A model generated the notes under the pieces. That model ran no database searches. It had not been told where the DNA came from and was given only the letters and a program-made list of their open reading frames with translations. Source: Paraglaciecola sp. (GTDB taxonomy: Bacteria; Pseudomonadota; Gammaproteobacteria; Enterobacterales; Alteromonadaceae). From it: a DNA stretch of 64,000 nt. Of the stretch, positions 2,873 to 49,477 are shown piece by piece. The stretch's first letter is position 1. Every line of letters begins with the position of its first letter. The position numbers were made by a program, and so were the translations under genes. The DNA is taken from contig NZ_JANQVQ010000019.1 of assembly GCF_030730205.1 (NCBI RefSeq), forward strand, positions 66,825-130,824, in the 5' to 3' direction.

Positions 2873-2877
2873 AATTA

Positions 2878-3315: not shown

Positions 3316-3396
3316 TTTCGACATGAAGAGGTAGGTGTTTAAGGCCCATCTTATAGTACAATCCCGGTCCAGAATTTTGGTGGTGAGAGCTCATTA

Positions 3397-10761: not shown

Positions 10762-10771
10762 TAACCTAAGG

Positions 10772-21402: not shown

Positions 21403-22013
21403 CTGTTAACCCCGCCATCATCCAATTTAAAACCCCATTTCCGCTAACACGCTAAAGGATTGGTGTGACGTACTTTATCGATCGCCAGACGAATATCAAT
21501 AAACGCGGCGTCATTTGGCGAAGGCCGCTTGGAAAGAACATGTGACAGTAAAAGTTGGGCAAAAACGACTCGTTTATTGCTTTATAAAGCTGTTTAATCG
21601 CTTGGATAATATCGCTTGTTGCACTAATGCGGGTGTGCGAGGATTTGGTATTGTTAATGTTTTATTAACAATAATTACAAATAATTAATGAGTGTTATAG
21701 GCAGACTGAAGTTAGCACTTGTTAATGAGCAAGTTCTGAAGGCCACCAAAAGCAAGGCAGTTAACGGCTGACCATTTGGTTGCTAAGTATCGCTTAATCG
21801 CTGCTTAGCGGGGCAGAGGAAATAAGCACAAGATACAAGCATTGCTTAGATATTTGTATTTGCAGCTCAACAACTTGCATAAAAAATAATATGTCAATAA
21901 ATGCAAGTTATTTAGTCATTTTGTGCCATGTAAGATTTTTATACATGCTATTACCATCATAGTTGTGAATTTTAAGTTAATCAGCGCAACATGTAATTAA
22001 CAAGGGTCTACTC
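21403..22013. other. Intergenic region before the TonB receptor
   Basis: About 600 bases. The first 450 show no gene or motif. The last 140 bases hold the conserved element described at 21873-21958, followed by an AAGGG ribosome-binding site before the ATG at 22014. Confidence 0.5.
21873..21958 (+). promoter_or_regulatory. 86-bp promoter element, copy A
   Basis: This stretch aligns without gaps to 31045-31130, with 67 of 86 bases identical by my count, although the genes behind are unrelated (a TonB receptor and an MFS carrier). It begins with an inverted repeat, AACTTGCAT (21872-21880) and ATGCAAGTT (21901-21909), followed by the best conserved core TATTTAGTCATTTT and a T-rich tail ending in CTATTACCATC. 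It lies 55 bases before the receptor start. A shared operator plus promoter is the simplest explanation. Confidence 0.6.
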
Positions 22014-24872
22014 ATGAAAACAACACATAAACCATTTTTACGCAACCGTTGCTGTGCAAGTGTTCTTCTCGCACTTGGCATTGCCAGCACGATGCCTTTA
22101 TCTGTGGCTTCTGCACAGGAACAAGCTGATACGAACAAGAGTGACAAGGAAGAGGCTGTAGAGTTAATTGTTGTATCTGCATCACGGCTTAAATCTCGTC
22201 CTGGGTACGAAGCGCCTACCCCTACCACGGTACTCGATTCTTCTTTTGTAAATGATGTGGGTGTTGTGAATGTGGCTGATGCTTTAAACCGCTTACCATC
22301 AATGGGCGCTGCAACTTCACCACGCAGTTCTGCTAATGATGTGGGCTCTGGTGTACAAGGTGCTAATTTTCTTAATTTACGTGGTATTGGCAGTAACCGC
22401 ACATTAGTATTACTTGATGGACGTCGGGTGGTAAGTGCTGCAGTGACCGGCCAAGTTGATATTAATATGTTGCCCAGTACCTTGTTAAAACGCACGGAAA
22501 TCGTTTCGGGTGGTGCATCGGCTGCGTGGGGTTCAGACGCTGTGGCGGGTGTAGTTAACTTAGTTTTAGATAAAGAATTCACCGGCGTTAAGGGGTCAGT
22601 GCAAGCGGGCCGCTCAGGCTACGATGATGCTGATGAATTTAAAGCAAATTTAGCCGCTGGTTTTGATTTTGCTGATGGAAAAGGGCACGTTATCGGTAGC
22701 CTTAATTACACCCAAGCAGATGGTGTTGACCGCGCTGACTCGCGGGATTGGTTTAAAAGTACAAAACTGGTTAATAACCCCGCTTATGCAGAGGGCAATG
22801 GTGAGCCTCAGCGTTTAGTGGTCGATAACGTCGGTAATTTTATTGGTTCTGACGCTGGCCATACCTTTTTGAGTGCCGGCCCTTTAGCTGGAATTACGTT
22901 TTCACCTGAGGGTGCTTTATTACCTTTTAACTTTGGCACGCGTTATCCAGGGGGGCCACTGGGCAGCAGTATGACCGGAGATGGTCAGTTAAATGACTTT
23001 TCGGCCCGCACGCAAATATTGGCAGAATACCAACAGATCACTGGGTTTTTACATGCCACCTACGATGTGACAGATGATTTAACAGTTTACGGAGAGTTTA
23101 TGAGTGGCTCAACGGAAGGAGAATCACTGTCAGTGCCGTATTATCGTTTTGCTGGTGCTCTAACGATTTCAAGAGATAATCCATTCTTACCCGCAGACTT
23201 AGCTAACCAGATGGACAGTTTTGGTATGACCTCTGTGCCTATGGGGCGCTCAAACGTAGATTTTGGCCGCGCTAATCCATACAACGAACGAGACATGACA
23301 CGCTATTTAATTGGCGCGGATTATGAAATAAATGACAAGTGGTCGATGGCGGCTTATTACGAGCGTGGCAGTATTGACGTCGTTAATGAAACCAGAAGTG
23401 ATGCCAATACCGCAAAATATGCGCTGGCAACGGATGCTGTATCAGATGGTAATGGTAATGTGGTGTGTCGTTCAAGCCTTACCGACCCTGGCAATGGCTG
23501 TGTAGCCGCTAATATTTTTGGTTTAGGCGCTCCGAGTCAAGCAGCTATTGATTATGTTGTTGGCACTGCCCGTCAAGATCTAGAGCTGACCCAAGACGTA
23601 CTTTCAATCACGTTTAGTGGTGATATCACTGAACTTGATGCAGGTGCTGTGTCTACCTCTTTTGGTTACGAATATCGCAAAGAGCAATTTAGTGGTAAGG
23701 CCGATCCTATTTCGCAAGTCAGCGGTTGGTGGGTGGGTAACTACAAAGATGCAGAAGGCGAATATGACGTTAATGAAGTCTTTGCTGAAGTATTAGTGCC
23801 TATCTTTTTTGATTCAGCGTTAGGCAATTCATTAGATTTTAATGCTGCAGTGAGGTTAACTGATTACAGTACCAGCGGTAAAGTCACTACTTGGAAAGGC
23901 GGTTTAACTTATGATATTGGTGCGGGCGTGTCTTTACGAGGTACCCAATCTCGCGATATCAGAGCGCCAAATTTAAACGAATACTACAGTGGTGGACAAA
24001 CTAACAGTTTGTATTTTAACGACCCCTTCGTCGAAAATCCCCTCGGTGAAGGTGTGGCTAACTACTTGGTCACGCGCACTATTCGCGGCAATCCAGATTT
24101 ATCACCCGAAGAAGCAGATACCACCACTTTTGGTATTGTGTATGAGCCTGAATTTATTGAAAACCTGTCTTTGTCCTTAGATTACTTTCACATTAACGTG
24201 GACGGCGCTATTGATACCGTGCTTGACCAGGACATCGTTGATCGCTGTTATAACGGCGAGACTTCCTTTTGTAGTTTGATTCAACGTGATTCTGCAACAG
24301 GGCTGATGACAAATATCTTTAACTCTCCAGTTAACTTAACCGAAGAAGTGTTGACTGCTTACGACTTTGAAGTCACCTACCAGTTCGAGTTGGCCGGCGG
24401 CAATGTGGATATTCGGTCATTTTGGACCCATACCACTGAACATTACACTAAAGATCGAGGCATAAAAGATGAACTCTTAGGTGAATTTGCCGGTGGTAAT
24501 GGTGCGGTAAATGGTGGCCCGCAAAAATGGGCGAGTTTAACCTCAATCCGGTATACCGATTATGTTAATACTGTTTCTTTGCGTCATCGTTATATTGGTG
24601 AGGGGGTAATTGATGCAAGTTGGCAGTCTGGTGTTGATGTTGATAACAATAAAATTGATGCTGTCAGTTATATTGATTTAACTGCCAGTCGTCGCATTGA
24701 TGTAGACGATGTGAGCTTTGAAGTGTTTGCCAGCATTGATAACGTGTTTGACAAAGAGCCTCCTCGCGTTGGATTTGATGGCGGTACTGCACTAGATGAC
24801 CTTGGCGTATCGAACACACGTCATGATTTGATTGGTCGATATTTTCGCTTAGGTGTGAGATTCGACTACTAA
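22014..24872 (+). CDS. TonB-dependent receptor, 952 residues
   Basis: A large outer-membrane active transporter with signal peptide (to about SVASAQEQ), TonB-box-like VELIVVSAS, plug domain (LNLRGIGSNRTLVLLDGRRV and IVSGGASAAWGSDAVAGVVN) and a barrel ending in FRLGVRFDY. The GxxRTLVLLDGRR plug motif is common among receptors of Alteromonadales, sphingomonads and Caulobacter that import saccharides, peptides or aromatics. The substrate is not readable directly. The promoter shares an 86-bp element with the ferulate operon at 31.2 kb, so a lignin-type aromatic is a reasonable guess. A terminator hairpin separates it from the metallo-hydrolase gene behind. Confidence 0.88.
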   Translation: MKTTHKPFLRNRCCASVLLALGIASTMPLSVASAQEQADTNKSDKEEAVELIVVSASRLKSRPGYEAPTPTTVLDSSFVNDVGVVNVADALNRLPSMGAATSPRSSANDVGSGVQGANFLNLRGIGSNRTLVLLDGRRVVSAAVTGQVDINMLPSTLLKRTEIVSGGASAAWGSDAVAGVVNLVLDKEFTGVKGSVQAGRSGYDDADEFKANLAAGFDFADGKGHVIGSLNYTQADGVDRADSRDWFKSTKLVNNPAYAEGNGEPQRLVVDNVGNFIGSDAGHTFLSAGPLAGITFSPEGALLPFNFGTRYPGGPLGSSMTGDGQLNDFSARTQILAEYQQITGFLHATYDVTDDLTVYGEFMSGSTEGESLSVPYYRFAGALTISRDNPFLPADLANQMDSFGMTSVPMGRSNVDFGRANPYNERDMTRYLIGADYEINDKWSMAAYYERGSIDVVNETRSDANTAKYALATDAVSDGNGNVVCRSSLTDPGNGCVAANIFGLGAPSQAAIDYVVGTARQDLELTQDVLSITFSGDITELDAGAVSTSFGYEYRKEQFSGKADPISQVSGWWVGNYKDAEGEYDVNEVFAEVLVPIFFDSALGNSLDFNAAVRLTDYSTSGKVTTWKGGLTYDIGAGVSLRGTQSRDIRAPNLNEYYSGGQTNSLYFNDPFVENPLGEGVANYLVTRTIRGNPDLSPEEADTTTFGIVYEPEFIENLSLSLDYFHINVDGAIDTVLDQDIVDRCYNGETSFCSLIQRDSATGLMTNIFNSPVNLTEEVLTAYDFEVTYQFELAGGNVDIRSFWTHTTEHYTKDRGIKDELLGEFAGGNGAVNGGPQKWASLTSIRYTDYVNTVSLRHRYIGEGVIDASWQSGVDVDNNKIDAVSYIDLTASRRIDVDDVSFEVFASIDNVFDKEPPRVGFDGGTALDDLGVSNTRHDLIGRYFRLGVRFDY

Positions 24873-24892
24873 GTCTAGATAACGTTACAGCG

Positions 24893-24929
24893 GGCTAAGT
24901 CGAAGTGAGCACTTCACTTAGCCTCTTTT
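24893..24929 (+). terminator. Terminator after the TonB receptor
   Basis: GGCTAAGT-C-GAAGTG pairs with CACTTC-ACTTAGCC around a two-base AG turn with one bulged C, followed by TCTTTT. It should stop most transcripts before the next gene. Confidence 0.75.
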
Positions 24930-24967
24930 AAAATGGCGAATAAAATTCAGTCAAAGGGAATAAGTCA

Positions 24968-25945
24968 ATGATAAACAAAAAGACACTTGCTTTAACGACG
25001 GTTAGTTTACTTTGTTTAGGGTGCAGTGCTGTAGCCAATACTGAGCAAAACCTTGCGCAAACTCACGTTGATAAAGCCTATGCGTTAGCGGGCGATACTT
25101 TTATGCGCACAACTGCCGAGTTGCAATGCAGTACCGATAATCGGGCAATGGCATTTTTCAAAGATAAAACAGTTCCACCTGCCACTAAGATATTTGACAA
25201 TCTTTATTATGTTGGCGTAACCCCTGTTGGCGCTTATGCCCTGCAAACCAGTGATGGAATTATTTTAATCGATGCACTAAATAATACCCAAGAAGCTCAA
25301 GAGGTTATTGAATCAGGCATGCTGTCTGTGGGTTTAGATCCCGCTGATATCAAAACTATCATAGTGACTCATGGCCACGGGGATCATTATGGTGGTGCTA
25401 AATATTTAGCCGAAAAATATCAGGCCTCGGTCATGATGAGTGAGCTCGATTGGGATATGGCAACTAATCCTGCGCCCAGACCCGCCCGTCCTGGAATGCC
25501 AGCACCAAATTGGTCAACTGCGCCAGATAAAGATCTTGTTGCCACTGATGGTCAGGAAGTCACCTTAGGAGACACCACGGTTAAAATCGTATTCACTCCC
25601 GGTCATACCCCAGGGACACTCTCTTTGATTTTTCCAGTGACAGAAAATGGAGCAAGGCACACTGCGGCGCTATGGGGAGGGACAGGGATCCCAAAAGATA
25701 AGGGATTAGCACAAGCCTACGTTAATTCGGCAAAGAAATTCGCTAAATTGGCAAAGGACATGAACGTTGATGTGGCCTTGAGCAATCACGCTTTTGTCGA
25801 TGACTCCCTCAGGCGTATGGCTGAATTACGCGCCAATCCAGATAAGGCTAATCCTTTTATTATTGGTCAGCAAATGGTGCAAGATTACACTCAGGTTATT
25901 GCTGAATGCGCTTCAGCGGCAGTAGCAAGAATGCCAACGGAGTAA
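24968..25945 (+). CDS. Metallo-beta-lactamase-fold lipoprotein hydrolase
   Basis: A 325-residue MBL-fold enzyme resembling subclass B3-like hydrolases. A short lipoprotein signal is present with Cys at residue 19 (LCLGC). Zinc ligands: H135-G-H137-G-D139-H140 in TIIVTHGHGDHYGG, H213 in TPGHTPG and a later H in SNHAFVD. The start follows AGGGAATAAGTC. Although the fold includes carbapenemases, many secreted members act on lactones, esters or unknown substrates; resistance must not be assumed. It sits 95 bases after the TonB receptor but behind a terminator, so it may have its own promoter. It could process the substrate taken up by the receptor. Confidence 0.8.
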   Translation: MINKKTLALTTVSLLCLGCSAVANTEQNLAQTHVDKAYALAGDTFMRTTAELQCSTDNRAMAFFKDKTVPPATKIFDNLYYVGVTPVGAYALQTSDGIILIDALNNTQEAQEVIESGMLSVGLDPADIKTIIVTHGHGDHYGGAKYLAEKYQASVMMSELDWDMATNPAPRPARPGMPAPNWSTAPDKDLVATDGQEVTLGDTTVKIVFTPGHTPGTLSLIFPVTENGARHTAALWGGTGIPKDKGLAQAYVNSAKKFAKLAKDMNVDVALSNHAFVDDSLRRMAELRANPDKANPFIIGQQMVQDYTQVIAECASAAVARMPTE

Positions 25946-25996
25946 CTATCGTGCGGCCATCTGAAATGGGCATCTGAGCAAACCAAACACCGACAT

Positions 25997-26026
25997 AAAA
26001 ATGCCTATCAGTTGATAGGCATTTTT
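25997..26026. terminator. Bidirectional terminator between the MBL gene and fahA
   Basis: A perfect 14-bp stem, AAAAATGCCTATCA paired with TGATAGGCATTTTT over GT, lies between the two convergent genes. Flanking A and T runs let it work on both strands. Confidence 0.85.
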
Positions 26027-26056
26027 GTTGAAGCTGGATTCACTACACGGAATTGA

Positions 26057-27373
26057 TTAGGGTATTTTTGCAGGCAACAAAGTGCCTGTTACTTCTCCAA
26101 ACCCAATTCGTTTGGCGCCTTGTTTGGCGCAATGGCCGCGCATAATAACGGTATCTCCATCTTCTAGAAAGCTGCGCGTCTCACCATTTTTCAGGGTTAC
26201 AGCTTGCTTACCCCCTTGGCTTAACTCAAGTAATGAACCCGCTTCACTGGCATGGGGGCCAGATTGAGTGCCACTACCGAGTAAATCACCTGGGCGCATA
26301 TTACAGCCATTTATCGTATGGTGAGCGAGCATCTGAGCCACTGACCAGTAAGAATGTTTAAAGTTAGTGGTGGCCAAACATTCAGCTTCTTCATTATTTT
26401 TTCGCATTTTTGCTGTACTGATGGCAACTTCTAATACGATGTCTAAACCGCCACGTTGACGGTTTTTATCTGATTCTAAATAAGGCATGGGCTGAGGATG
26501 ATCTTCGGCTCTGGTCCACGGTGTAGTAAAAGGTGCTAAGGCCTCAAAAGTAATTACCCAAGGCGAGACCGTTGAGGCGAAGTTCTTTGACAAAAAGGGT
26601 CCTAATGGTTGATATTCCCACGCTTGAATATCACGAGCCGACCAATCATTAAATAGGCATAAGCCAAAAACATGTTGGTCAGCATCATCAATAGCAATTC
26701 TGTCTCCTAAAGCGTTGCCACGACCAACAAAAATCCCTAGTTCTAACTCATAGTCAATTTTTTGGGCGGGGCCAAACTGTGGTTCACTAGCCGTTGGTGG
26801 GCGAGTTTGTCCACAGGGACGGTGGAATTGTTGGCCCGACACTGCAATCGACGAACTGCGGCCATGATAACCAATGGGCACCCATTGATAATTAGGTAGT
26901 AAGGGATTGTCGGGGCGAAACTGTTTACCCACATTTGTCGCATGATAAATCGAGCTATAAAAATCAGTGTAGTCACCAATTTGAGCCGGCAGCGCGTATT
27001 CAACGTCTGTCATCGACACCAACGTGCTTTCGATTTCACCTCGTAAAGATGAGCCTACTCGTAAGGCTCTTGATAAATCCAAGCGTAAACTGCTCCAATA
27101 TTCATAACCCAGCGCCATAAGCTCATTCAGCTGAGGTGAGAGACACGTCTTAAGGGCTTGTTCGGTTTTACCCAGAAATAAACCTTTAGTCGCGAGTACT
27201 GAAAGGTCTATAACCTGATCGCCTATGGCCGTGCCAACGCGAAATGCCTCCTGTGACCCATGACGACGAAACACCGCAAAGGGTAAGTTTTGTATCGGAA
27301 AGTCAGTACCTTCTTCATTGGCCGAGCCGAGCCAGCTTTGCAGCGCTGGGTCATGGGTTTCGTTTAATTGCAT
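26057..27373 (-). CDS. fahA: Fumarylacetoacetase
   Basis: Last enzyme of tyrosine/homogentisate catabolism: hydrolyses fumarylacetoacetate to fumarate and acetoacetate. The 438 residues match the eukaryote-like long FahA. The N-terminal SH3-like domain has LPFAVFRR and IGDQVIDL; the catalytic domain has DYTDFYSSIYHATNVGKQFR, VPIGYHGRSSSI, the metal-site ELELGIFVG and DWSARDIQAWEYQPLGPF, and GSGTQSG near the end. It is the third gene of the hpd-VOC-fahA operon, 14 bases after the VOC gene, and ends at a bidirectional terminator. Confidence 0.93.
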   Translation of the reverse strand: MQLNETHDPALQSWLGSANEEGTDFPIQNLPFAVFRRHGSQEAFRVGTAIGDQVIDLSVLATKGLFLGKTEQALKTCLSPQLNELMALGYEYWSSLRLDLSRALRVGSSLRGEIESTLVSMTDVEYALPAQIGDYTDFYSSIYHATNVGKQFRPDNPLLPNYQWVPIGYHGRSSSIAVSGQQFHRPCGQTRPPTASEPQFGPAQKIDYELELGIFVGRGNALGDRIAIDDADQHVFGLCLFNDWSARDIQAWEYQPLGPFLSKNFASTVSPWVITFEALAPFTTPWTRAEDHPQPMPYLESDKNRQRGGLDIVLEVAISTAKMRKNNEEAECLATTNFKHSYWSVAQMLAHHTINGCNMRPGDLLGSGTQSGPHASEAGSLLELSQGGKQAVTLKNGETRSFLEDGDTVIMRGHCAKQGAKRIGFGEVTGTLLPAKIP

Positions 27374-27387
27374 AGATTGAGTATCCT

Positions 27388-27930
27388 TTAATTAGAATGA
27401 GTGAATTCTTTTTCGTGCAGCCATGCCGCATGTTTTGGGGCTTTTTTCGTTTTGCTCCATTCTTCTAACATGGCAGGGGCAACCTCATGCAAGGTTTGCA
27501 TTTCTTCATCTGTGCAGCTGTTAGCCACCAATTCAATACGATGACCGTTAGGATCCCTAAAATAAATAGACTGAAAAATACCGTGATTGGTAGGGCCAAG
27601 TACATCAAGCCCTTGTGCTTCTAATCTTTTCTTAGCGTCGAGTAATTCATCAAAATTGTCGACTTCCATGGCAAAATGCTGAACCCAATCAGGCGTGTTG
27701 CCGTCTCTGCCCATTTTGGGGCTATTGGGTAGTTCAAAGAAGGCCAATACATTGCCCATACCAGCATCTAAAAATACATGCATATACGGATCAGGCGCTT
27801 TAGTAGACGGTACGCGGTCTTCGGCAATGGCAAGTACAAAGCCCATGCCCAATACATTTTGATAAAAGTCAACGGTTTCTTTGGCATCGTTGCAGCGATA
27901 CGCCACATGATGAATGCGTTTAATTTTCAT
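27388..27930 (-). CDS. VOC family metalloprotein in the hpd operon
   Basis: A single-polypeptide vicinal-oxygen-chelate protein of 180 residues. The start at 27930 is chosen because AAGGAGC lies ten bases before it; a longer frame begins at 27963 inside hpd without such a site. Metal-ligand candidates follow the VOC pattern: H8 (IHHVAYRC), H85 (VQHFAMEV) and E133 (GHRIELV). The motif FYQNVLGM is that of glyoxalase and extradiol dioxygenase folds. Its place between 4-hydroxyphenylpyruvate dioxygenase and fumarylacetoacetase, where homogentisate 1,2-dioxygenase might be expected, points to tyrosine catabolism, but the reaction is unknown. Confidence 0.8.
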   Translation of the reverse strand: MKIKRIHHVAYRCNDAKETVDFYQNVLGMGFVLAIAEDRVPSTKAPDPYMHVFLDAGMGNVLAFFELPNSPKMGRDGNTPDWVQHFAMEVDNFDELLDAKKRLEAQGLDVLGPTNHGIFQSIYFRDPNGHRIELVANSCTDEEMQTLHEVAPAMLEEWSKTKKAPKHAAWLHEKEFTHSN

Positions 27931-27943
27931 AGATGTGCTCCTT

Positions 27944-29032
27944 TTACACCGCAATTCGATCATCTGTTGTTAGTACACCACGACGAATTTGGTCTCGTTC
28001 AATTGATTCAAACAGAGCTTTGAAATTCCCTTCGCCAAAGCCTTCATCACCCTTACGTTGAATAAATTCAAAAAAGATGGGGCCGATAGCGTTTTCAGAA
28101 AAAATTTGTAGCAACAAACGCGGGGAGCTGCCATCCGTTGTGCCGTCTAGCAAGATGCCACGACGTTTTAATTCCGACACATCTTGGCCATGACCAGGTA
28201 GTCGGTCTGCAAGCATTTCATAATAGGTTTCGGGTGGCGCGGTCATAAATTGAGTACCGCAGGCTTTTAGCTTGTCCCAGCAGGCTAATAAATCGTCGCA
28301 AATAAAGGCAATGTGCTGAATTCCTTCACCATTGTATTTCATCAAAAATTCTTCAATCTGCCCGTTACTGCCAGACTCTTCGTTGAGTGGAATGCGAATT
28401 TTACCATCAGGAGCCGTCATGGCCTTTGAGGTTAAACCGGTATATTCGCCTTTGATGTCAAAGTAACGAATTTCTCTAAAGTTAAACAATTTTTCGTAGT
28501 AGTCAGCCCAAAATTTCATGCGGCCTTTGTATACATTATGAGTGAGATGGTCGATTAATTTAAAGCCGCAGCCCTCAGGGTTACGCTCCACGCCGGGTAT
28601 AAATTCAAAGTCGATGTCATAAATCGATAAGCCTTCTTCGTAACGGTCAATCAAATAGATTATGGCACCGCCAATACCGCGAATTGCGGGCAATTTAAGT
28701 TCCATCGGCCCACATGGGATCTCAATGGGCTGGGCACCTAAATCAAGTGCACGTTTGTAGGCAGCGCGGGCACAGCGCACTCTAAATGCCATACCACATG
28801 CCGACGGACCGTGTTCATCCGCGTAATATGCAGCCGGCGATTTTGCAGCATAATTAATGATGATATTGATTTCTCCCTGGCGCCATAAATCAACATCTTT
28901 AGAGCGGTGGCTGGCAACATGGATAAACCCCATGGTGATAAATACGGGCTCTAAGACGCCTTTCTCTTTCGCAGCAAATTCGATAAATTCAAAGCCATCG
29001 AGTCCCATGGGGTTGTCAAATAAATCTGTCAT
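27944..29032 (-). CDS. hpd: 4-Hydroxyphenylpyruvate dioxygenase
   Basis: Fe(II) enzyme that makes homogentisate from 4-hydroxyphenylpyruvate. The 362-residue product has the usual two VOC domains. Iron ligands: H in [15 protein letters not shown] in [13 protein letters not shown] and E in [12 protein letters not shown]. The C-terminal gating helix [22 protein letters not shown] is present. It is the first gene of the operon, with the VOC gene starting 13 bases after the stop. A divergent Lrp-type regulator starts 166 bases away, with an AT-rich palindrome in the gap. Confidence 0.94.
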
Positions 29033-29163
29033 CGCTAATCCTCTTATTGGTTGTTCGTAAATAGCAGTTATTTGCCTGATTTCTATTGGCTACTTTACTC
29101 CCTGTTAAAGGCTATTTTCTGTTTATATTTGCTTGATAATGGGTATTACGTGGCATAATCTGT

Positions 29164-29179
29164 TAATAATTTATTATTA
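29164..29179. promoter_or_regulatory. AT-rich palindrome between hpd and the Lrp gene
   Basis: TAATAAT-TT-ATTATTA, perfect 7-bp arms, 18 bases before the Lrp-type start. This is a plausible operator for autoregulation and for control of hpd. Confidence 0.45.
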
Positions 29180-29197
29180 GTAGATGGGATCCACCCT

Positions 29198-29665
29198 ATG
29201 AAGTTATCTCGAACTGAGTGTGAAATATTGCAGTTATTACAACGAGATGGACGCATGTCTAATGTGGAAATAGCAAACCGAGTGGGCCTGTCAGAATCAC
29301 CCTGTTTAAGGCGGATTAAGGCATTAGAGAGTGCAGGGGTCATTGACCACTATTCAGCGAATCTGAATCAACGATTAATTGGCCTACAGGTAACCTCTTT
29401 TGTGTTAGTTTCCCTTGAGAAACATGATGAATCTAAGCGCATCACGTTCTTAAAAGAGGTTGAAGAGCAAGAATATATAATCGAATGCCATGCCACTACG
29501 GGCAGTTACGATTATTTAATGAAGGTGGTGGCGACCAGCATGGATCATTTTTCTGATCTGTGTATGAATAAAATATTAAAATTTGCTGGTGTCATGAATA
29601 TTGAATCCCAGTTTAGCCTCAAAGTGATTAAAGCCAGCAGTGCTTTGCCAGTAAAAAGCGCTTAA
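29198..29665 (+). CDS. Lrp/AsnC family regulator of the hpd operon
   Basis: A 155-residue regulator with N-terminal helix-turn-helix (RDGRMSNVEIANRVGLSESP, then CLRRIKALE) and C-terminal RAM domain, including ECHATTGSYDYLMKVVA. The CLRRIK-x-LE form is typical of AsnC-family proteins controlling amino-acid catabolism. Being divergent from hpd, it probably senses tyrosine, phenylalanine or a keto-acid derivative. It is convergent with a sulfotransferase gene 22 bases away. Confidence 0.87.
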   Translation: MKLSRTECEILQLLQRDGRMSNVEIANRVGLSESPCLRRIKALESAGVIDHYSANLNQRLIGLQVTSFVLVSLEKHDESKRITFLKEVEEQEYIIECHATTGSYDYLMKVVATSMDHFSDLCMNKILKFAGVMNIESQFSLKVIKASSALPVKSA

Positions 29666-29687
29666 TGAAAAATAACATTGCTGTTGC

Positions 29688-30623
29688 TCATGCCCCAGAA
29701 AATTGAACCGGTTTTGCTAATGCCAAAACGCGCTTTCTGGACGACTCATCAATCAGTGTCTCATTTGCATATTGGCTAACAAGCGCGTTAATTTGCTTTA
29801 ACTGAGGCATCACAAGCTCTTTGTCTTTTGCTGATAAATTAAACTGGTTGAGGACCTTGATTAAGCTAATCGACACGTTATTTAAACTAGCATTTTGACG
29901 GGGCGTCGGGTTGTCGTGCGCAGTTGCCAACCCCAGTTTTTGACTCACCTGTTGCACTACATCGCCTTCGTATTCGAACACTGACACCTTGGTTTTGCCA
30001 AACAAATCTTGGCAATCTGCAACAAAACCTTGGTAATTTAGATGTTGTGCAAACCACTCAATCTCTAACATTTTCGCAAAAGATAAATCTTTGCCATAAC
30101 AAGGGTTTCCCTCGACTTGTGGGTTTCGAATACATTGCTTGTAATAGCTTTCAATAAAGCCTAATGGTTCACGAAACCACACCCAAATTTTAATATCGAA
30201 TAATTGATTAAGCTCAGTCAGGATGGTGTGTGCCGACGCGGGTAAATCCCACCAATAATTATAAATGCCCTCCGAAGACAAAATGATGGTGTGGGTGTCG
30301 GGTTTTATTTGGGAAATAATGTTTTTAAAGTTGGCCAAAAAGTGTGGTAGGTGGTTGGAGGCGAGGTTTTTTTCAAACCACTGATGTGCTGGAGCGTGTG
30401 GGTTGGGTATTCGGTCCAGATTATGCGGATATAAAATCCCTTTTCCTCGCAATTTCCGCTGTTTTTTACTTAGGTAGGTTTGCAGGCTAGTGGTGCCTGT
30501 CTTTGGCGTGCCAGCGTGAATAATAAGTGTGTGTTTTTCAATATTGAGTCCAGTTAATGACCCTCTAAAACTGACAAGTAAATCAGCCAATTCTGTCAAC
30601 ATTTCAATAGAGGTGTGTTTCAT
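29688..30623 (-). CDS. Sulfotransferase family protein
   Basis: A cytoplasmic PAPS-dependent sulfotransferase is predicted. The 5'-phosphosulfate loop is HAGTPKTGTTSLQTYL (P-K-T-G-T-T), and the 3'-phosphate-binding region is VWFREPLGFIESYYKQCIRN with the conserved R and S. The 311 residues lack a signal peptide. In marine bacteria such genes often serve capsule or exopolysaccharide sulfation, but no polysaccharide genes are beside it here. It is a single gene convergent with the hpd regulator. Confidence 0.75.
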   Translation of the reverse strand: MKHTSIEMLTELADLLVSFRGSLTGLNIEKHTLIIHAGTPKTGTTSLQTYLSKKQRKLRGKGILYPHNLDRIPNPHAPAHQWFEKNLASNHLPHFLANFKNIISQIKPDTHTIILSSEGIYNYWWDLPASAHTILTELNQLFDIKIWVWFREPLGFIESYYKQCIRNPQVEGNPCYGKDLSFAKMLEIEWFAQHLNYQGFVADCQDLFGKTKVSVFEYEGDVVQQVSQKLGLATAHDNPTPRQNASLNNVSISLIKVLNQFNLSAKDKELVMPQLKQINALVSQYANETLIDESSRKRVLALAKPVQFSGA

Positions 30624-30840
30624 TTTCTAATCTGCAAACCTTTATATAACGGTAAAGTCGTGAAGGGTAACACACAGTATTAGCCTGCGGTGCTGAACTT
30701 GATAACTCGTATTTGTAAAATAGCTAAAAACGAGCAGCTGGGCCTTTGAGAATATAAATAATAGTCTTCCCCAGCCAATACCAGCGTAAACTAGAGTGAC
30801 TAGCCCCAACGCTGGCTATGTGCAGTTAAGGCGGGGAGAA

Positions 30841-30969
30841 ATGCTGAATGATGTCAGCGCACCACGTTTAGCGGAAGTACAATACCTACTATTAGTTCGG
30901 GCTATGGCTCTGCAAGCCTGTGCACTAAACAACCCTCAATTAATCAAAGCGCGTTTTCCTGTTTTCTAA
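30841..30969 (+). CDS. Possible 42-residue small protein
   Basis: An ATG at 30841 preceded closely by GGCGGGGAGAA opens a 42-codon frame ending in TAA. The product starts MLNDVSAPRLAEVQYLLL and ends IKARFPVF. I do not recognise it; it could be a real small gene, or the remnant tail of a lost gene in the 620-base gap. It has no obvious transmembrane segment. Confidence 0.3.
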   Translation: MLNDVSAPRLAEVQYLLLVRAMALQACALNNPQLIKARFPVF

Positions 30970-31044
30970 ACCCCTATATTACAAGCTTATTAAAGGCACT
31001 TATTAGCGGCTTACCCGGGCCCTGTACTGTCAATATGATTTTAA

Positions 31045-31130
31045 ACGTGCATAAAAATAGAGCTGTCATTTTATGCATGCTATTTAGTCGTTTTCTGCTA
31101 TATAAGACTTTTAAACATACTATTAACATC
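31045..31130 (+). promoter_or_regulatory. 86-bp promoter element, copy B
   Basis: Second copy of the element at 21873-21958 (67/86 identical, no gaps). It contains the inverted repeat TGCATAAAA (31048-31056) and TTTTATGCA (31069-31077), then TATTTAGTCGTTTT, and ends with CTATTAACATC. It lies 117 bases before the ferulate operon carrier gene. The two inverted repeats keep TGCAT and ATGCA at the same distance although the spacer differs, which suggests a protein-binding site. Confidence 0.6.
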
Positions 31131-31246: not shown

Positions 31247-32590
31247 ATGAACCACAGTCCCGCTACCTTACTAAATGATAGTGCCATGAGCCGTCTGCAA
31301 CTCATGGCCGTTATTATTTGTATTGCACTCAATGCTTTAGATGGCTTCGATGTACTGGCCATCAGTTTTGCTTCTCCTGGGATCGCTGCTGAGTGGGGCA
31401 TTAATCGTGCTGAACTTGGGGTAGTGCTAGCCATGGAAATGTTTGGTATGGCGACCGGCTCAGTCATTTTAGGTCATGCAGCTGACCGCTTTGGCCGTAA
31501 ACCGACTATTCAATTTTGTCTTGTCTTAATGACTTCGGGTATGTTTCTAGCTGCCTTAGTGGACACTATAAATCACTTGTTGTTAGTGCGTTTTCTAACA
31601 GGTCTTGGTATTGGGGGTATGTTGGCCTCGACGAATGCCATGGTTGCAGAATTTGCCAATCAAAAATACCGGCATTTGTGTGTCATCATCATGGCAACTG
31701 GTTACCCCATTGGCGCCATTATTGGTGGTTCAGTGGTATCAGTCCTACTTGAAACGCATAGTTGGCGTTCAATATTTATCTTTGGGGGCAGTGTTACTGG
31801 TGTGTTTATGTTTATAGTCGCTTGGTGCTTACCAGAATCGGTTGAGTACTTGTCTAATAAACAGCCGCCACACGCCTTAAAACGAATAAATATTATTTTG
31901 CAAAAAATGGGTCATGCCAGTATTGAGCAGCTGCCCAGCAAAGTGCATCAAATTAAACAGTCTAGTTTTAAAGTCTTGGCCTCAAAAGAGTTTCGAGCAC
32001 TGACCCTGTTGTTAATGCTGGCTTATTTTGCACAGATCATGACTTTCTATTTTATTCTCAAGTGGATCCCCAAATTTGTAGTCGACATGGGATTCGAACC
32101 TGCCAATGCGGGTCAAGTACTCGTGTGGGCAAACGTAGGCGGTGCTATTGGCGCAATTTTGCTAGGCTTAATGGCCAGCCGTATCAAGCTGCGTCGACTG
32201 CTAATTGTCGTGTTGGCCTTATCTTTTGTCATGGTCTCAATATTTGGTATGGGCTATTCCTCCTTGAGTAGTTTGGCCATTGTTTCAGCCGCAACCGGCT
32301 TTTTCACCAATGCTGGTGTAGTGGGTTTATATGCCTTAATGGCGCAAAGTTTCCCCTCAGATGTTCGAGCCAGCGGCACGGGCGTGGTGATTGGTTTTGG
32401 TCGCGGCGGCGCAGCGTTAAGCCCCATCATAGCTGGCTATTTGTTTACTGCGGGTGTTGGTTTGCAAGGTGTAGCCATGGTAATGGGAGCAGGTGCCTTA
32501 GTTTCGGCAGTGGCCATCATTTTGATTGGACTCAGACAGAAAAAACACGGCTCAAGCCCAAAGTTGGTAGTAACACAGAATCTCAGTTAG
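31247..32590 (+). CDS. Aromatic-acid MFS transporter (AAHS/PcaK-like)
   Basis: Inner-membrane proton symporter with 12 predicted helices in 447 residues. The first helix has ALNALDGFDVLAISFASPGI, with the DGFD signature of the aromatic acid:H+ symporter family (PcaK, BenK, VanK), and the loop between helices 2 and 3 has GHAADRFGRKP. It is the first gene of the ferulate operon and probably brings ferulate or another hydroxycinnamate or vanillate across the inner membrane. A promoter element shared with the TonB receptor at 22.0 kb lies upstream. The start ATG has no strong ribosome-binding site. Confidence 0.87.
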   Translation: MNHSPATLLNDSAMSRLQLMAVIICIALNALDGFDVLAISFASPGIAAEWGINRAELGVVLAMEMFGMATGSVILGHAADRFGRKPTIQFCLVLMTSGMFLAALVDTINHLLLVRFLTGLGIGGMLASTNAMVAEFANQKYRHLCVIIMATGYPIGAIIGGSVVSVLLETHSWRSIFIFGGSVTGVFMFIVAWCLPESVEYLSNKQPPHALKRINIILQKMGHASIEQLPSKVHQIKQSSFKVLASKEFRALTLLLMLAYFAQIMTFYFILKWIPKFVVDMGFEPANAGQVLVWANVGGAIGAILLGLMASRIKLRRLLIVVLALSFVMVSIFGMGYSSLSSLAIVSAATGFFTNAGVVGLYALMAQSFPSDVRASGTGVVIGFGRGGAALSPIIAGYLFTAGVGLQGVAMVMGAGALVSAVAIILIGLRQKKHGSSPKLVVTQNLS

Positions 32591-32626: not shown

Positions 32627-34027
32627 ATGACAAATTTTAAGAGAATGAATCCACTTACAGGTGAGTTAGCCAGCGAAGCCTTAGCGATGCAAGTCACAGA
32701 TATGGCAGCGATTGCACAAAACGCCCAACAAGGTTTTAAGCAGTGGTCACTTGTCGGTCCAAATGGACGCCGGGCTATATTGAATAAAGCAGCTGGCGCA
32801 CTTGAAGCTCGTCAAGATGCTTTTGTTGCCGCGATGATGAGCGAAACTGGCTCGACAGCCGGCTGGGCTATGTTTAATTTAGGCTTGGCTGCCTCAATGT
32901 TGCGCGAGGCAGCCTCTTTGACGACCCAGATTAGCGGGGAGATTATTCCCTCAGATAAACCAGGCTGTTTGGCCATGGCCCAGCGAGTCCCGGTTGGCGT
33001 TATTTTGGGTATAGCACCTTGGAATGCGCCAATTATTCTTGGCGTGCGGGCAATTTCAACTGCATTGGCTTGTGGTAATGCCGTGATATTGAAAGCCTCT
33101 GAGATTTGCCCGCATACCCATTCGTTAATCATTGAAGCCTTAGCAGACGCTGGATTTCCGGAAGGTACAGTTAATATTGTCACCAATGCCCCAGAAGATG
33201 CGGGTGATGTGGTAGGGGCCCTTATTGATCATCCAGCCGTTAAGCGTATCAACTTCACCGGCTCTACGGCCGTAGGACGCATTATAGCTCGCCGAGCCGC
33301 TGAAAATCTCAAACCTTGTTTGCTGGAACTAGGCGGCAAAGCACCCATGCTGATATTAGCCGACGCTGATCTTGATGAAGCAGTAAAAGCAGCCGCTTTT
33401 GGCGCGTTCATGAATCAAGGACAAATTTGTATGTCTACCGAGCGCTTAATTGTAGTGGATGCCGTGGCAGACGACTTCGCACAACGCTTTAAACAGAAAG
33501 TGCACACTATGCCCACCGGCGACCCTCGTGAAGGCAATACCCCATTAGGTGCGGTTGTTGATGAAAAAACCGTTTTAAAGGTCAATAGCTTAATCGAAGA
33601 TGCGGTATCTAAAGGAGCAACTATCTTAGTAGGCGGTACAAGTCGCTCTGTACTGATGCAAGCCACCGTGATTGATGGCGTGACTAAAGATATGGCGATA
33701 TACAGCGAAGAAAGTTTTGGACCTGTGGTGGCGATCATTCGAGCCAGCGATGAGCAGCAAGCCATCGATATTGCCAATGATTCTATTTATGGCTTAAGCG
33801 CCGCGGTGTTTACTCAAGATGTAGCACGAGGAATGACCATTGCCACAAAAATCAATAGCGGTATTTGTCATATCAATGGGCCAACGGTTCACGATGAAGC
33901 ACAGATGCCCTTTGGTGGGGTTGGTGCCTCAGGGTACGGCCGCTTTGGTGGTAAAGCCGGTATCGATCAATTCAGTGAACTGCGCTGGATCACGGTAGAG
34001 ACTCAAGCGGGTCATTATCCCATCTAA
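32627..34027 (+). CDS. vdh: Vanillin dehydrogenase (aldehyde dehydrogenase family)
   Basis: NAD(P)-dependent oxidation of vanillin to vanillate. A 466-residue aldehyde dehydrogenase with N133 in APWNAPI, the FTGSTAVGR nucleotide loop, E234 in LELGGKAP and catalytic C268 in NQGQICMSTERLIV. Of the many members of this family, vanillin/benzaldehyde/salicylaldehyde dehydrogenases are of this short type. Its place directly before feruloyl-CoA hydratase/lyase, which makes vanillin, makes the substrate clear. An AAAAAGGT ribosome-binding site precedes the ATG, 36 bases after the carrier gene. Confidence 0.88.
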   Translation: MTNFKRMNPLTGELASEALAMQVTDMAAIAQNAQQGFKQWSLVGPNGRRAILNKAAGALEARQDAFVAAMMSETGSTAGWAMFNLGLAASMLREAASLTTQISGEIIPSDKPGCLAMAQRVPVGVILGIAPWNAPIILGVRAISTALACGNAVILKASEICPHTHSLIIEALADAGFPEGTVNIVTNAPEDAGDVVGALIDHPAVKRINFTGSTAVGRIIARRAAENLKPCLLELGGKAPMLILADADLDEAVKAAAFGAFMNQGQICMSTERLIVVDAVADDFAQRFKQKVHTMPTGDPREGNTPLGAVVDEKTVLKVNSLIEDAVSKGATILVGGTSRSVLMQATVIDGVTKDMAIYSEESFGPVVAIIRASDEQQAIDIANDSIYGLSAAVFTQDVARGMTIATKINSGICHINGPTVHDEAQMPFGGVGASGYGRFGGKAGIDQFSELRWITVETQAGHYPI

Positions 34028-34092
34028 GGTTAACGTAAACCTTGCACCGCAACTTAATTAAAACACATTCAATTGATATAAAGGAAAGTCCA

Positions 34093-34932
34093 ATGAGCAC
34101 TGAAAGAACCGAACAAGAAACCGTGGCGTTTGTGGTAGAAAATAACATCGCTTGGGTGAAATTTAATCGCCCTGAAAAACGTAATTGCATGAGTCCAAAG
34201 CTGAATCGCCAAATGCAGCGAGTACTCGACGAGTTGGAGTTTCGCGCTGATGTTGGCGTCGTCGTACTAACAGGAGAAGGCACGTCGTGGTCTGCAGGGA
34301 TGGATTTAAAAGAGTACTTTCGTGAAAACGAAGGCAAGGGTTTAGGCGCAACCCGCCAAGCCCAGCGTGAAGCTTACGGTTGGTGGCGCAGCTTGCGTTG
34401 GTATCAAAAACCCACTATTGCCATGGTAAACGGTTGGTGTTTTGGTGGTGGTTATGGTCCATTGTTTGGTTGTGACTTAGCATTTGCAGCGGAAGATGCC
34501 ACCTTTGGTCTAAGTGAAATCAACTGGGGCATACTACCTGGTGGTGGTGCCAGTAAAGTGGTGGCTGATTTAATGCCTCTGCGTAAGGCAATGTATCATG
34601 CCATGATGGGTGAAAATATTGACGGTAAAACGGCAGTTGAGTGGGGTTTGGTCAACGAAGCCTTGCCAAGTGAACAACTAAAAGCGCGAGTTGAAGCGGT
34701 ATGTAAGGTATTACTTGCAAAAAACCCAGTGGCATTGAAAGCGACCAAAGACGCCATTCGTCGTGTAAAAGAGATGACTTACGACAATGCCGAAGATTAT
34801 CTAATTAGAGCGCAAGAGGCAGCAAACAGTTACGACAATGAAGGGCGTAAAGAGGGGATTAAACAATTTATTGATGATAAAACCTATAAGCCTGGTTTAG
34901 GCGCATATGATAAGAGCAAGCAAGGCGCTTAA
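34093..34932 (+). CDS. ech: Feruloyl-CoA (p-hydroxycinnamoyl-CoA) hydratase/lyase
   Basis: Crotonase-fold enzyme that hydrates feruloyl-CoA and cleaves it to vanillin and acetyl-CoA. The start at 34093 has AAGGAAAG just before it; an in-frame ATG at 34042 would add 17 unrelated residues. Features: M70 and Y75 in SAGMDLKEYF, oxyanion glycines in NGWCFGGGYG, and E142 in FGLSEINWGILPGG, corresponding to the catalytic Glu143 of the Pseudomonas enzyme. Where that enzyme has Ser123, this one has G122. The 279 residues match the family. It is 15 bases upstream of the synthetase gene. Confidence 0.9.
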   Translation: MSTERTEQETVAFVVENNIAWVKFNRPEKRNCMSPKLNRQMQRVLDELEFRADVGVVVLTGEGTSWSAGMDLKEYFRENEGKGLGATRQAQREAYGWWRSLRWYQKPTIAMVNGWCFGGGYGPLFGCDLAFAAEDATFGLSEINWGILPGGGASKVVADLMPLRKAMYHAMMGENIDGKTAVEWGLVNEALPSEQLKARVEAVCKVLLAKNPVALKATKDAIRRVKEMTYDNAEDYLIRAQEAANSYDNEGRKEGIKQFIDDKTYKPGLGAYDKSKQGA

Positions 34933-34947
34933 GGGAGACGACAAACC

Positions 34948-36420
34948 ATGGACTTTCTGACTTTTCAGGCATCGTTTCGCCCCGACAGTTTAGCGGTACA
35001 AGACCTTACTTTTGAGCGTCACTGGAGCTACAGCGAATACAACTTGTTGGTCGGCAAGTTCGCGGCGTACTTGTTACAACGAGGGATAAAGCGCGGTGAC
35101 AGAGTGGCATGTGTAAGTAAAAACCGGGCAGAAGTCATTGCCCTGCATTTTGCCTGTGCAAGATGTAAAGCGATTTTTGTCCCTTTAAATTGGCGTTTAT
35201 CCCTGTTTGAAATTGAAGGTTTGCTGGCCGATTGTGAACCGGCTCTTGTATTTGGTGATGAGAAAGCCGCAGAAATAGGCATTGCTTTTGAGCCTATTCA
35301 AAATCTTATTAGCGATACCCAACATTTGCCTGTGGATAGCGCATTAGAATGTGATAACGATGCAGCTTGTTTGATTTTGTACAGCTCTGGTACCACAGGG
35401 CAACCTAAGGGGGCGATTCACACTGAAGGCACCTTGATGGAAACCATTCTGAATTCGACGATGTTGTATCAAGTTGACCAGCACAGTGCGTTTTTAAATG
35501 AGTCGCCTATGTTCCATATTATTGGCTTAATTTCTTCGGTACGACCTGTATTGTATAATGGCGGTAAGTTGGTTATTTCAGACGGATTTATTCCAGAACG
35601 TACTTTAGAGCGCATGTCTGATCCAGCTCTAAGCATCAGCCATTATTTTTGTATACCACAAATGGCCAATGCACTTCGACAAGTAACGGGTTTTGATCCC
35701 GCCAAGTTAAAAAACCTAAAAGCCTTATTAACCGGTGGGGCGCCTCATCCTGAAGTCCAAATTAGACGGTGGCTCAATGATGGTATTCCTATTGTTGACG
35801 GTTACGGTATGAGTGAGGCAGGCACTCTGTTAGGTATGCCCCATCAACTCAACTTAATTGATCACAGCGCCGGTAGTGTCGGAACGAATACCCCAAGAGT
35901 CTCCATTCGTTTGCATGATGCACTCGGTAAACCCGTTGAACCGGGTGAGGCAGGGGAGGTGCAGCTTAAAGGGCCTAATCTGTTTATTGGTTATTGGGGT
36001 AAAGAAGCGTTATACGCCAATAGTTTTACCGATGATGGCTGGTTCGAAACAGGTGATATTGCGGTGCAAAATGCGCAAGGTTATTACCGTATCGTAGACA
36101 GAAAAAAAGACATGTTTATTTCAGGGGGCGAAAATGTGTTTCCTGCTGAAGTAGAAGCTATTGTGTTAAAGCACCCCCAAGTATTTGAATGCGCGATGAT
36201 CGGCGTACCCGACGAAAAATGGGGTGAGGTAGGGCATTTGTATGTTGTATGCCAAAAGGACATCAAGACCCTTGATAGCGATGGTTTGTTGCATTATTTG
36301 TCGGCCCATTTAGCCAAATACAAAATACCTAAAGCGGTGATTGTGCTGGAAACCTTACCCCGTAATGGCGCCGGTAAAGTCATTAAACACGCGCTGAACG
36401 CTCACGCGGCTAAGGTGTAA
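34948..36420 (+). CDS. fcs: Feruloyl-CoA synthetase
   Basis: AMP-forming CoA ligase that activates ferulate (and likely coumarate/caffeate) with ATP and CoA. The 490-residue product carries the phosphate loop LILYSSGTTGQPKGAIHTEG, the VDGYGMSEAG adenine motif, the hinge TGDIAV, YRIVDRKKDMFISGGENVFP and the C-terminal catalytic Lys in LPRNGAGKVIKH. It is the last gene of the four-gene ferulate operon and is followed by two hairpins. The medium-length ligase family alone does not define the substrate; the neighbouring lyase and vanillin dehydrogenase do. Confidence 0.9.
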   Translation: MDFLTFQASFRPDSLAVQDLTFERHWSYSEYNLLVGKFAAYLLQRGIKRGDRVACVSKNRAEVIALHFACARCKAIFVPLNWRLSLFEIEGLLADCEPALVFGDEKAAEIGIAFEPIQNLISDTQHLPVDSALECDNDAACLILYSSGTTGQPKGAIHTEGTLMETILNSTMLYQVDQHSAFLNESPMFHIIGLISSVRPVLYNGGKLVISDGFIPERTLERMSDPALSISHYFCIPQMANALRQVTGFDPAKLKNLKALLTGGAPHPEVQIRRWLNDGIPIVDGYGMSEAGTLLGMPHQLNLIDHSAGSVGTNTPRVSIRLHDALGKPVEPGEAGEVQLKGPNLFIGYWGKEALYANSFTDDGWFETGDIAVQNAQGYYRIVDRKKDMFISGGENVFPAEVEAIVLKHPQVFECAMIGVPDEKWGEVGHLYVVCQKDIKTLDSDGLLHYLSAHLAKYKIPKAVIVLETLPRNGAGKVIKHALNAHAAKV

Positions 36421-39024: not shown

Positions 39025-39356
39025 AGGGCTCTCCAATAGGTAAATAAATGGATGCCGTGCACAGGAATTGGCTGTTGCTTAAATCAAAAAGGGGGGCATA
39101 TCAAAGATATACCACCTTACCAGCAATAAGGCTCGACGATAACTCAGATGTTAACGACTTGTAATAGCTGACGGAATGGCAGATAACGACGAAATGATTG
39201 ACATAAATTGCCATGCTAATTTTTTTGCAAGTAAAAACAGGTTAAGCAACAAAAAACCGGTAGAGGCAAACATCAATAATAAGCGAAAGAGGCTGGGCTA
39301 GAGCTCAACCTTCCTTGCTTACGCATCGTTTAGAGCGGGAAAACATTTATCAATTT
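39025..39356. other. Intergenic region, nothing recognised
   Basis: About 330 bases between the LysR-type gene and the acyl-CoA dehydrogenase, both read leftwards. I see no gene, repeat or strong terminator. Confidence 0.5.
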
Positions 39357-40265
39357 TTAAGCAAATTTCGCTGCACAATCGATAATCCGTTGTCGCAGCC
39401 AGCGGTGCATAGGATCGTTTTCAAGGGTAGGGTGCCACATCATATTTTCTTTTAACTTTGGTGTTTCAAAGGGTAATTTAACTATTTTGACGGCTTCGCG
39501 CTGGACATGCATTTCTGCAAAATGGCGTGGCAAAATGGCAATTCGATCTGTGTTAAGTAAGGTGTAGATCATGGTGGAAAAATCGTTAGTGATCACTTCT
39601 ACCCGTCGATTAGTTTCCATTGTATGAATGAGCCATTGCTCAATACTCAAGTGGCTGGCGCGAGCAAATCCCACTGATATGTGGCCAAGAGAGTTAAACT
39701 CTTCCATGGTCAGCTCTTTGTCTACCCGTTTATTGTTAATGTCTGCAATACACACTAGCTCATCGCTCACCAGCGGGGTGTTGGGGTAGGCATCTAACAT
39801 AACTGCTTCCGGCGCCATCATAATATCAGCCCCGCCTTTGGCCAACACATTCACTTCATGGGCAAAGGGCGATAAAAATTCAAAGGTCACGCCCGGTGCA
39901 GATTGAGCCACATCGGCCAATACATGCCTTAATAACACCTGAATAATGTAGTCAGAGGCAATAATTTTAAAATGCCGTTCACTTTGCTCAGGATTATTGG
40001 CTTTTCTGCCAATGATAGAGCCCCTCACGGTTGCAAGCACGCCAGCTACAGGGCCCTGTAGCTCGAGGGCAAACGGGGTAGGCTGCATTTTTTTACCAAT
40101 CTGAACTAATAAGTCATCTTCGAAAAAAGCGCGCAATCTCGACAAAATACCACTGGTGGCAGATTGCGATAAATGCAGTCGTTCTGAGCTTCGCGTGATG
40201 TTTTGCTCTTCAAGTAAAATGTCTAAGGCAACTAATAGGTTGAGGTCGAGTTGTTCAAATCTCAT
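39357..40265 (-). CDS. LysR family transcriptional regulator
   Basis: A 302-residue regulator with the N-terminal helix-turn-helix (FEQLDLNLLVALDILLEEQN, then SQSATSGILSRLRAFFED) and a periplasmic-binding-like ligand domain. The DLNLL-x-LD opening and the rest resemble the NodD/LinR-type subgroup that responds to phenolic or aromatic inducers. The start at 40265 is preferred to a TTG 15 bases upstream. It is divergent from the six-gene aromatic cluster at 40451-45885 and is its probable activator. Confidence 0.87.
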   Translation of the reverse strand: MRFEQLDLNLLVALDILLEEQNITRSSERLHLSQSATSGILSRLRAFFEDDLLVQIGKKMQPTPFALELQGPVAGVLATVRGSIIGRKANNPEQSERHFKIIASDYIIQVLLRHVLADVAQSAPGVTFEFLSPFAHEVNVLAKGGADIMMAPEAVMLDAYPNTPLVSDELVCIADINNKRVDKELTMEEFNSLGHISVGFARASHLSIEQWLIHTMETNRRVEVITNDFSTMIYTLLNTDRIAILPRHFAEMHVQREAVKIVKLPFETPKLKENMMWHPTLENDPMHRWLRQRIIDCAAKFA

Positions 40266-40365
40266 TGTGTGCTCTCGCAAAAAGGGGCTTTGGTGCTGCT
40301 TTGAGTAAATAGCATAAAGCGCATATTTAGGTATCTGTTTTTCTGATGGTTGTTATCTAAACATT

Positions 40366-48494: not shown

Positions 48495-48497
48495 GTG

Positions 48498-49454: not shown

Positions 49455-49477
49455 ATACCTGAACCGGAGTCATAATT

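Follow-up and report, generated by a model that had tools for sequence, protein, structure and literature searches.

An 86-bp promoter-like element and a putative AraC-type regulon that links a TonB-dependent receptor to ferulate catabolism in Paraglaciecola sp.

Known hydroxycinnamate regulators and the present locus

Two binding sites, of which the promoter-proximal one lies at or near -35, characterise the promoters served by AraC (araI1-I2) and XylS (Pm). A similar layout is proposed here for an 86-bp element that stands before a TonB-dependent receptor gene, a predicted ferulate operon and an acyl-CoA dehydrogenase gene within 64,000 nucleotides of DNA from Paraglaciecola sp. (assembly GCF_030730205.1, contig NZ_JANQVQ010000019.1, positions 66,825 to 130,824; this whole stretch, and not the element, is called the window). 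Judging from its sequence, we consider it likely, at a probability of roughly 0.83, that the element is an activator-dependent promoter bound by an AraC/XylS-family activator and that it unites these three gene sets, whose likely task is the uptake and degradation of ferulate, a plant phenolic.

HcaR and FerR are MarR regulators of hydroxycinnamate pathways, with FerC also cited, in a review that is devoted to MarR and as such cannot show other families to be absent (PMC10458429), and CouR is a hydroxycinnamate regulator of MarR type as well (PMC4737184). The predicted pathway of the window shares with the non-beta-oxidative cases among these regulons the route to vanillin through a CoA ligase and an enoyl-CoA hydratase/lyase (PMC10458429), but differs from them in that the gene accompanying the putative operator is AraC-family and in that this operator is a direct repeat, also common to a TonB-dependent receptor and an acyl-CoA dehydrogenase gene. 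PrhP of Ralstonia solanacearum, which acts positively on ferulic acid detoxification, resembles the proposed activator in this positive action, but is PadR-like and not AraC-family (PMC6804342). GliR (PA3027), an AraC regulator with one motif upstream of -35 and another overlapping it, shares the two-site layout, and its NCBIfam model is among three that match the candidate regulator proposed below, although the GliR motifs (YYGGCGHTDTYSGMC and GGAYAWCGCCG) are unlike the GTCA/TGcCA boxes of the element (PMC8151288).

DdvT of Sphingobium SYK-6 is a TonB receptor for dehydrodivanillate whose gene is linked to, and induced with, the catabolism of a lignin-derived aromatic, a likeness to our receptor that concerns gene linkage; its cluster, however, holds the MarR-type ddvR, whereas the window receptor is linked through a shared putative AraC-type operator (PMC6874591). 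In Pseudomonas bharatica CSV86, the ferulate-induced fer locus includes an acyl-CoA dehydrogenase gene (PMC12918735), which fits the placement of the third copy of the element. An AraC-type regulator of a ferulate operon was not found among the open-access titles and abstract starts listed, where absence is no proof. Where related open-access papers mention AraC, they do so for vanR, pobA and aryl alcohol/aldehyde genes, for HrpB, for engineered sensors or the arabinose system, in a strain genotype, or by chance as a word; PMC7540876 does not mention it. An AraC-linked ferulate regulon looks like a new variant, the hydroxycinnamate regulators met in this literature being of MarR or PadR type.

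Copies and architecture of the element

A sequence-only reading of the window had aligned the regions upstream of the receptor gene and of the ferulate operon (copies 1 and 2, Table 1) without gaps and at 67 of 86 bases, and this alignment was reproduced exactly. The best match to either copy was 48/86 in 100 Markov sequences of window size and 45 in 200 AT-rich pairs, and identity per 20-column block was 14-17 inside the element, 11 across its 3' border and 3-8 outside. The TATTTAGTC and CTATTA blocks reported for both copies are likewise present. A third copy, which had been overlooked, is 55/86 identical to copy 1 and 51/86 to copy 2 and lies 122 bp 5' of the start codon of the acyl-CoA dehydrogenase gene (ATG at 39024); 45 of the 86 columns are invariant across the three copies, and all three stand directly upstream of genes and in the orientation of those genes. 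BLASTN with copy 1 returned copy 1 itself and weak matches only (best other E 0.169), missing copy 2 and thus being too insensitive, and an exact palindrome pattern retrieved copies 1 and 2 alone from the whole genome, copy 3 being invisible to such a search.

When relatives are included, the conserved core consists of two direct repeats 22 bp apart, approximately TGTCAn5TGnCA followed by cGTCAn5TGCnA, with the consensus atTGtCA.T.t.TG.CAaTTaTTTcGTCA.TTTcTGC.ATtt from 14 aligned sites. Self-comparison of 11 sites gave a peak at the 22-bp offset (9.0 of 17 positions; the next best among offsets 12-32 reached 6.6), i.e. tandem sites about two helical turns apart, as in systems of the AraC/XylS type. 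The best conserved downstream block is TTAACAT (columns 79-85), which follows at a near-constant distance. Because conservation ends at this block, we prefer to read TAACAT (TAAAAT in two copies of the related locus L015) as a -10, which places it 15-17 bp away from a poor -35 beside repeat 2, rather than TTAACA as a -35.

From 5' to 3', the element would comprise A-rich DNA, then a tandem operator whose two direct repeats, at 22-bp spacing, each hold a pair of half-boxes separated by about 10 bp, and finally a poor -35 adjoining repeat 2 and the -10-like TAACAT, which is the anatomy expected of a promoter activated by an AraC/XylS-type protein, although this promoter assignment is putative. 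The binder would most likely be an AraC/XylS-family activator (Arabinose_bd plus HTH_18) encoded at G000:C259:597-1628 in the host genome. We propose that this activator senses a hydroxycinnamate or a derivative, occupies both repeats and recruits RNA polymerase, and that the operon for a major facilitator superfamily (MFS) transporter, Vdh, Ech and Fcs, the receptor gene (with a metallo-beta-lactamase-fold gene) and the acyl-CoA dehydrogenase gene would be switched on jointly.

The inverted repeat TGCAT...ATGCA, with which each copy had been said to begin, is indeed present in copies 1 and 2, but its candidacy as an operator did not hold up. Full arm pairing occurs only in these two copies, with 1-4 of 5 pairs in 9 other sites; the left arm falls within the A-rich block at the 5' side, and the right arm coincides with the second half-box of the first repeat. 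The fully paired arms of the two copies would nevertheless suit a different binder, perhaps acting on this palindrome, such as a MarR-type protein or the LysR (39357-40280) or Lrp/AsnC (29198-29665) protein encoded in the window; several characterised hydroxycinnamate pathways are under MarR control (PMC10458429, PMC4737184), and the Lrp/AsnC protein matches Pfam MarR at 26.7 bits (cut-off 24.6). Such a binder is improbable, as the palindrome is not kept in copy 3 or in relatives, where the 22-bp direct repeat is, and as the gene that accompanies the element in relatives is of the AraC family. Although the Lrp/AsnC protein was the sole MarR match among the 20 window proteins scanned (19372-44389), the only place where MarR genes were sought, AsnC-type families match it better, at 66 bits. 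Instead of the linked MarR gene and palindromic operator of a MarR-type operon, an AraC-family gene was found 5' of the element in five Pfam-scanned loci, and homologs of it in others.

Distribution of the element and of an AraC-family gene

A model named R1, built from 11 sites of relatives and from none of the window, was used to scan the host genome (5.18 Mb; 150 of 5768 first-look candidates were scored, and weak sites may be missed). The three window copies rank first (E values in Table 1), the next site has an E of 0.197, among 18 rows at E <= 10, and the three standout sites all lie within 17.4 kb. On the rest of the contig (C19, 1-67000 and 130800-133599) and on contig C259, no further copy scored above 6 bits, bar one mostly-N stretch. 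The sequence-only reading had named many genome-wide copies with no link to aromatic genes as the sign of a dispersed repeat; because only three sites stand out from the background of the whole genome, the element is no dispersed repeat or miniature inverted-repeat transposable element, for which many copies with no link to a gene class would be expected.

It is also very improbable that the similarity reflects no more than a recent copying of promoters, or a mobile or dispersed repeat, with no shared regulatory role, as the three sites each lie just 5' of a gene and in its orientation, and as the core is kept across genera and co-occurs with one regulator. Promoter copying itself probably happened, the core being nonetheless kept. 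Of the 46 non-core columns, 37 are identical between copies 1 and 2 and 36 between the copies before the divergent receptor and esterase genes of L015 (74/86 over the whole element), versus 32 for the receptor and two-haem-motif copies of L020 and 9-28 for the remaining pairs, near-duplicate species being left aside. These short alignments suggest two or more events in which a promoter cassette was copied inside a genome.

A second matrix, built from the three window copies alone, was applied to 81 ferulate loci (80 plus L015), and gave strong sites in seven loci (L015, L016, L018, L019, L020, L021, L022) and a weaker site in L079. In other genera, too, the element recurs ahead of ferulate genes and ahead of genes for TonB receptors. 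An AraC-family gene (ortholog cut-off >150 bits) lies 5' of the element in eight of the 81 loci, and the same eight have the eight best matrix scores (38.8-12.7), the ninth (L053) reaching 9.8. The gene is directly 5' of the element except in L014/L022, where one oppositely oriented gene, of the ketopantoate hydroxymethyltransferase family, lies between. Ech is found downstream of the element in all eight, and Vdh and Fcs follow in 7/8; in L079, the site is followed by Ech and an acyl-CoA dehydrogenase alone, Vdh and the MFS gene being located before the AraC gene. The combination of Arabinose_bd and HTH_18 (PF12625 and PF12833) is present in the five regulators scanned (L014, L015, L016, L020 and L021) and in that of L079.

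That the cognate regulator adjoins neither of the first two copies, as had been noted, agrees with tblastn searches using seven AraC proteins of relatives, which gave no match in the window at E <= 1e-3. The host genome encodes one close ortholog (G000:C259:597-1628, identical with L105:597-1628), which is 60% identical to the regulator of L021, the next homolog having 28%, and which carries PF12625 and PF12833, as expected of a cognate protein of the AraC/XylS type. It is matched by three NCBIfam models (QhpR, GliR and CypR; GliR at 134.6 bits), but is filed under none of them because the scores are far below the cut-offs. In the set of 147 family genomes, the three that have Ech (E <= 1e-60), namely G000, G015 and G058, are also the three with a close regulator ortholog (E <= 1e-100), and the seven best R1 hits come from them; a fourth regulator match, in G052 (E 3.6e-63), has an identity of only 34%. 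At E <= 1e-75, the regulator was found only in G000 and G058 among 394 order genomes and only in G000 among 369 class genomes, adding no new lineage. Since five other genomes of the same genus have neither an Ech nor a regulator match (both at E <= 1e-60), a horizontal gain is suggested, though without proof.

Given that R1 ranks the window copies first and that the regulator co-occurs with the element, the co-regulation of the receptor with ferulate catabolism, which the sequence-only reading had foreseen, appears well supported. Several observations weigh against our interpretation. The training sites of R1 include G015 and G058, and hence only the G000 hits are independent among the 147 family genomes, while two pairs of loci are near-duplicates, L016/L019 with 99% and L018/L020 with 97% in the regulator, which leaves about six independent lineages. 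L053 has weak sites (ninth of 81 with the matrix) and no AraC match in the 20.8 kb of the locus, and a site in a genome that lacks Ech and regulator matches at the thresholds used (G024:C4:493227-493260) reaches 24.7 bits with R1, near the weakest window copy (25.2 bits), perhaps as a chance match. A good sigma-70 -35 was not found, and the -10 is provisional. In addition, the regulator is on another contig, far from all three copies; even with C259 joined to the near end of C19, the coordinates would put 27 kb or more between it and the closest copy. The genes beside the regulator resemble a homoprotocatechuate pathway (L105:597-10000; HpaE-like, LigB-family and HpcH/HpaI), so that its inducer could be another aromatic acid, and it may have a wider aromatic role.

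Receptors, downstream genes and growth of the regulon

The receptors behind the element differ considerably. The window receptor has at best 26% identity over 129 residues to other element-bearing receptors, those of L015 and L020 not being close relatives, and its best homolog among the 147 family genomes is 40% identical. Because the element-bearing receptors share so little identity with it, distantly related receptors seem to have been brought under one switch. In L015 (G058), one copy of the element precedes a TonB receptor gene (1665-4133) and one a tannase/feruloyl esterase gene (4593-6335, PF07519), and in L018 and L020 it precedes a TonB receptor gene and then two further genes (hydrolase-like in L020). 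The genomes of L018 and L020 contain a further site, not used to build R1 (E 1.6e-4 and 4.5e-5), before a protein of 514-528 amino acids with two CXXCH motifs. The L196 protein has no Pfam match at 0.001, and a di-heme enzyme is a weak match in the PDB (E 0.0052). A protein with 69% identity to this two-motif protein is encoded near a TonB receptor in L053 (Parahaliea maris; 4635-6176), where, elsewhere in the locus, a weak element site lies before another Plug-domain gene.

The ligand of the window receptor may be an aromatic or feruloylated compound, the lignin-type aromatic suggested by the sequence-only reading being one candidate. It is conceivable, if on balance unlikely, that the receptor is co-regulated as proposed and yet takes up a substrate that is no free aromatic, such as a siderophore or a feruloylated oligosaccharide. 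Apart from the host, 25 of the 147 genomes encode homologs of it (32-40% identity, E <= 1e-100), 24 of these having no Ech match, the element-bearing receptors of L015 and L020 match the siderophore-type model TIGR01783 below its cut-off, and the tannase/feruloyl esterase of L015 bears the element as well. However, element-bearing receptors recur in several lineages together with ferulate genes, and in DdvT there is a precedent for a TonB receptor that serves a lignin-derived dimer (PMC6874591).

As for the genes behind the window copies (Table 1), Ech exceeds the NF006588 cut-off and is accompanied by a ligase and an aldehyde dehydrogenase identified by Pfam, which is the composition of a CoA-dependent, non-beta-oxidative ferulate operon with predicted substrates. 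The metallo-beta-lactamase-fold gene is possibly on the same transcript as the receptor gene. The acyl-CoA dehydrogenase has its best PDB match in 8r1e (E 1.2e-138).

Table 1. Coordinates of the element copies, their putative parts and the associated genes (window positions, except for the last two rows)
Feature	Position	Strand	Basis
Element copy 1, presumed promoter of TonB-dependent receptor	21873..21958	+	67/86 to copy 2; R1 E 3.7e-7
Operator repeat 1 of copy 1 (TGTCA...TGCAA), putative	21892..21908	+	22-bp direct-repeat register
Operator repeat 2 of copy 1 (AGTCA...TGCCA), putative; adjoins presumed -35	21914..21930	+	22-bp register
Presumed -10 of copy 1 (TACCAT); end of conserved block	21952..21957	+	position alone
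TonB-dependent receptor, 952 amino acids (Plug and beta-barrel)	22014..24872	+	PF07715, PF00593
Metallo-beta-lactamase-fold protein, 3' of receptor	24968..25945	+	PF00753; subclass B3-like, below cut-offs of 25 models listed
Element copy 2, presumed promoter of ferulate operon	31045..31130	+	67/86 to copy 1; R1 E 1.0e-4
Operator repeat 1 of copy 2, putative	31064..31080	+	22-bp register
Operator repeat 2 of copy 2, putative	31086..31102	+	22-bp register
Presumed -10 of copy 2 (TAACAT)	31124..31129	+	position
MFS transporter, aromatic acid:H+ symporter type	31247..32590	+	PF07690; TIGR00895 334.2 bits, below 418.55 cut-off
Aldehyde dehydrogenase, presumed vanillin dehydrogenase (Vdh)	32627..34027	+	PF00171; role from operon context
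p-Hydroxycinnamoyl-CoA hydratase/lyase (Ech)	34042..34932	+	NF006588 462.7 bits, cut-off 276
Acyl-CoA ligase, presumed feruloyl-CoA synthetase (Fcs)	34948..36420	+	PF00501; role from operon context
Acyl-CoA dehydrogenase, 585 amino acids from GGAG-preceded ATG	37267..39024	-	PF00441/PF02770/PF02771/PF12806 on open reading frame 37267-39036
Element copy 3, presumed promoter of acyl-CoA dehydrogenase	39147..39232	-	alignment; R1 E 5.1e-6
Operator repeat 1 of copy 3, putative	39197..39213	-	22-bp register
Operator repeat 2 of copy 3, putative	39175..39191	-	22-bp register
Presumed -10 of copy 3 (TAACAT)	39148..39153	-	position
Extra element copy before two-CXXCH protein	L195:3507-3592	-	R1; Alteromonas oceani and relative (with L196)
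Extra element copy before two-CXXCH protein	L196:2588-2673	+	R1; Alteromonas oceani and relative (with L195)

Both VanA_C (vanillate demethylase-type) genes of the genome are in the window (10772-11830 and 49478-50551) and lack the element. They belong to two vanillate-demethylase-type pairs of a Rieske/VanA_C oxygenase and a Fer2 reductase (9811-11830 and 48495-50551), neither pair having the element, and a GntR gene (12070-12789) lies beside one of them. Upstream of the ferulate operon, on the opposite strand (29688-30623, minus), there is an open reading frame of 311 amino acids with no Pfam or NCBIfam match at 0.001.

More tentatively, and at somewhat less than even odds in our estimate, marine gammaproteobacteria might possess a hydroxycinnamate regulon, so far undescribed, that is controlled by an AraC-type activator and not by a MarR repressor. 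Such a regulon might repeatedly have drawn in TonB receptors that are only distantly related to one another, as well as an esterase in one lineage and a two-haem-motif protein in another, partly by the copying of promoter cassettes within genomes. The activator-type and probably hydroxycinnamate-responsive promoter could be usable as a sensor part, and the pairing of one operator with one regulator would provide a testable rule for which marine TonB receptors serve plant phenolics. The present data also suggest that regulons may grow through whole promoter cassettes that are copied in front of new uptake genes. If the undescribed AraC-type regulon is true, the catabolic switch itself would include the energised uptake, across the outer membrane, of ferulate conjugates or of lignin oligomers.

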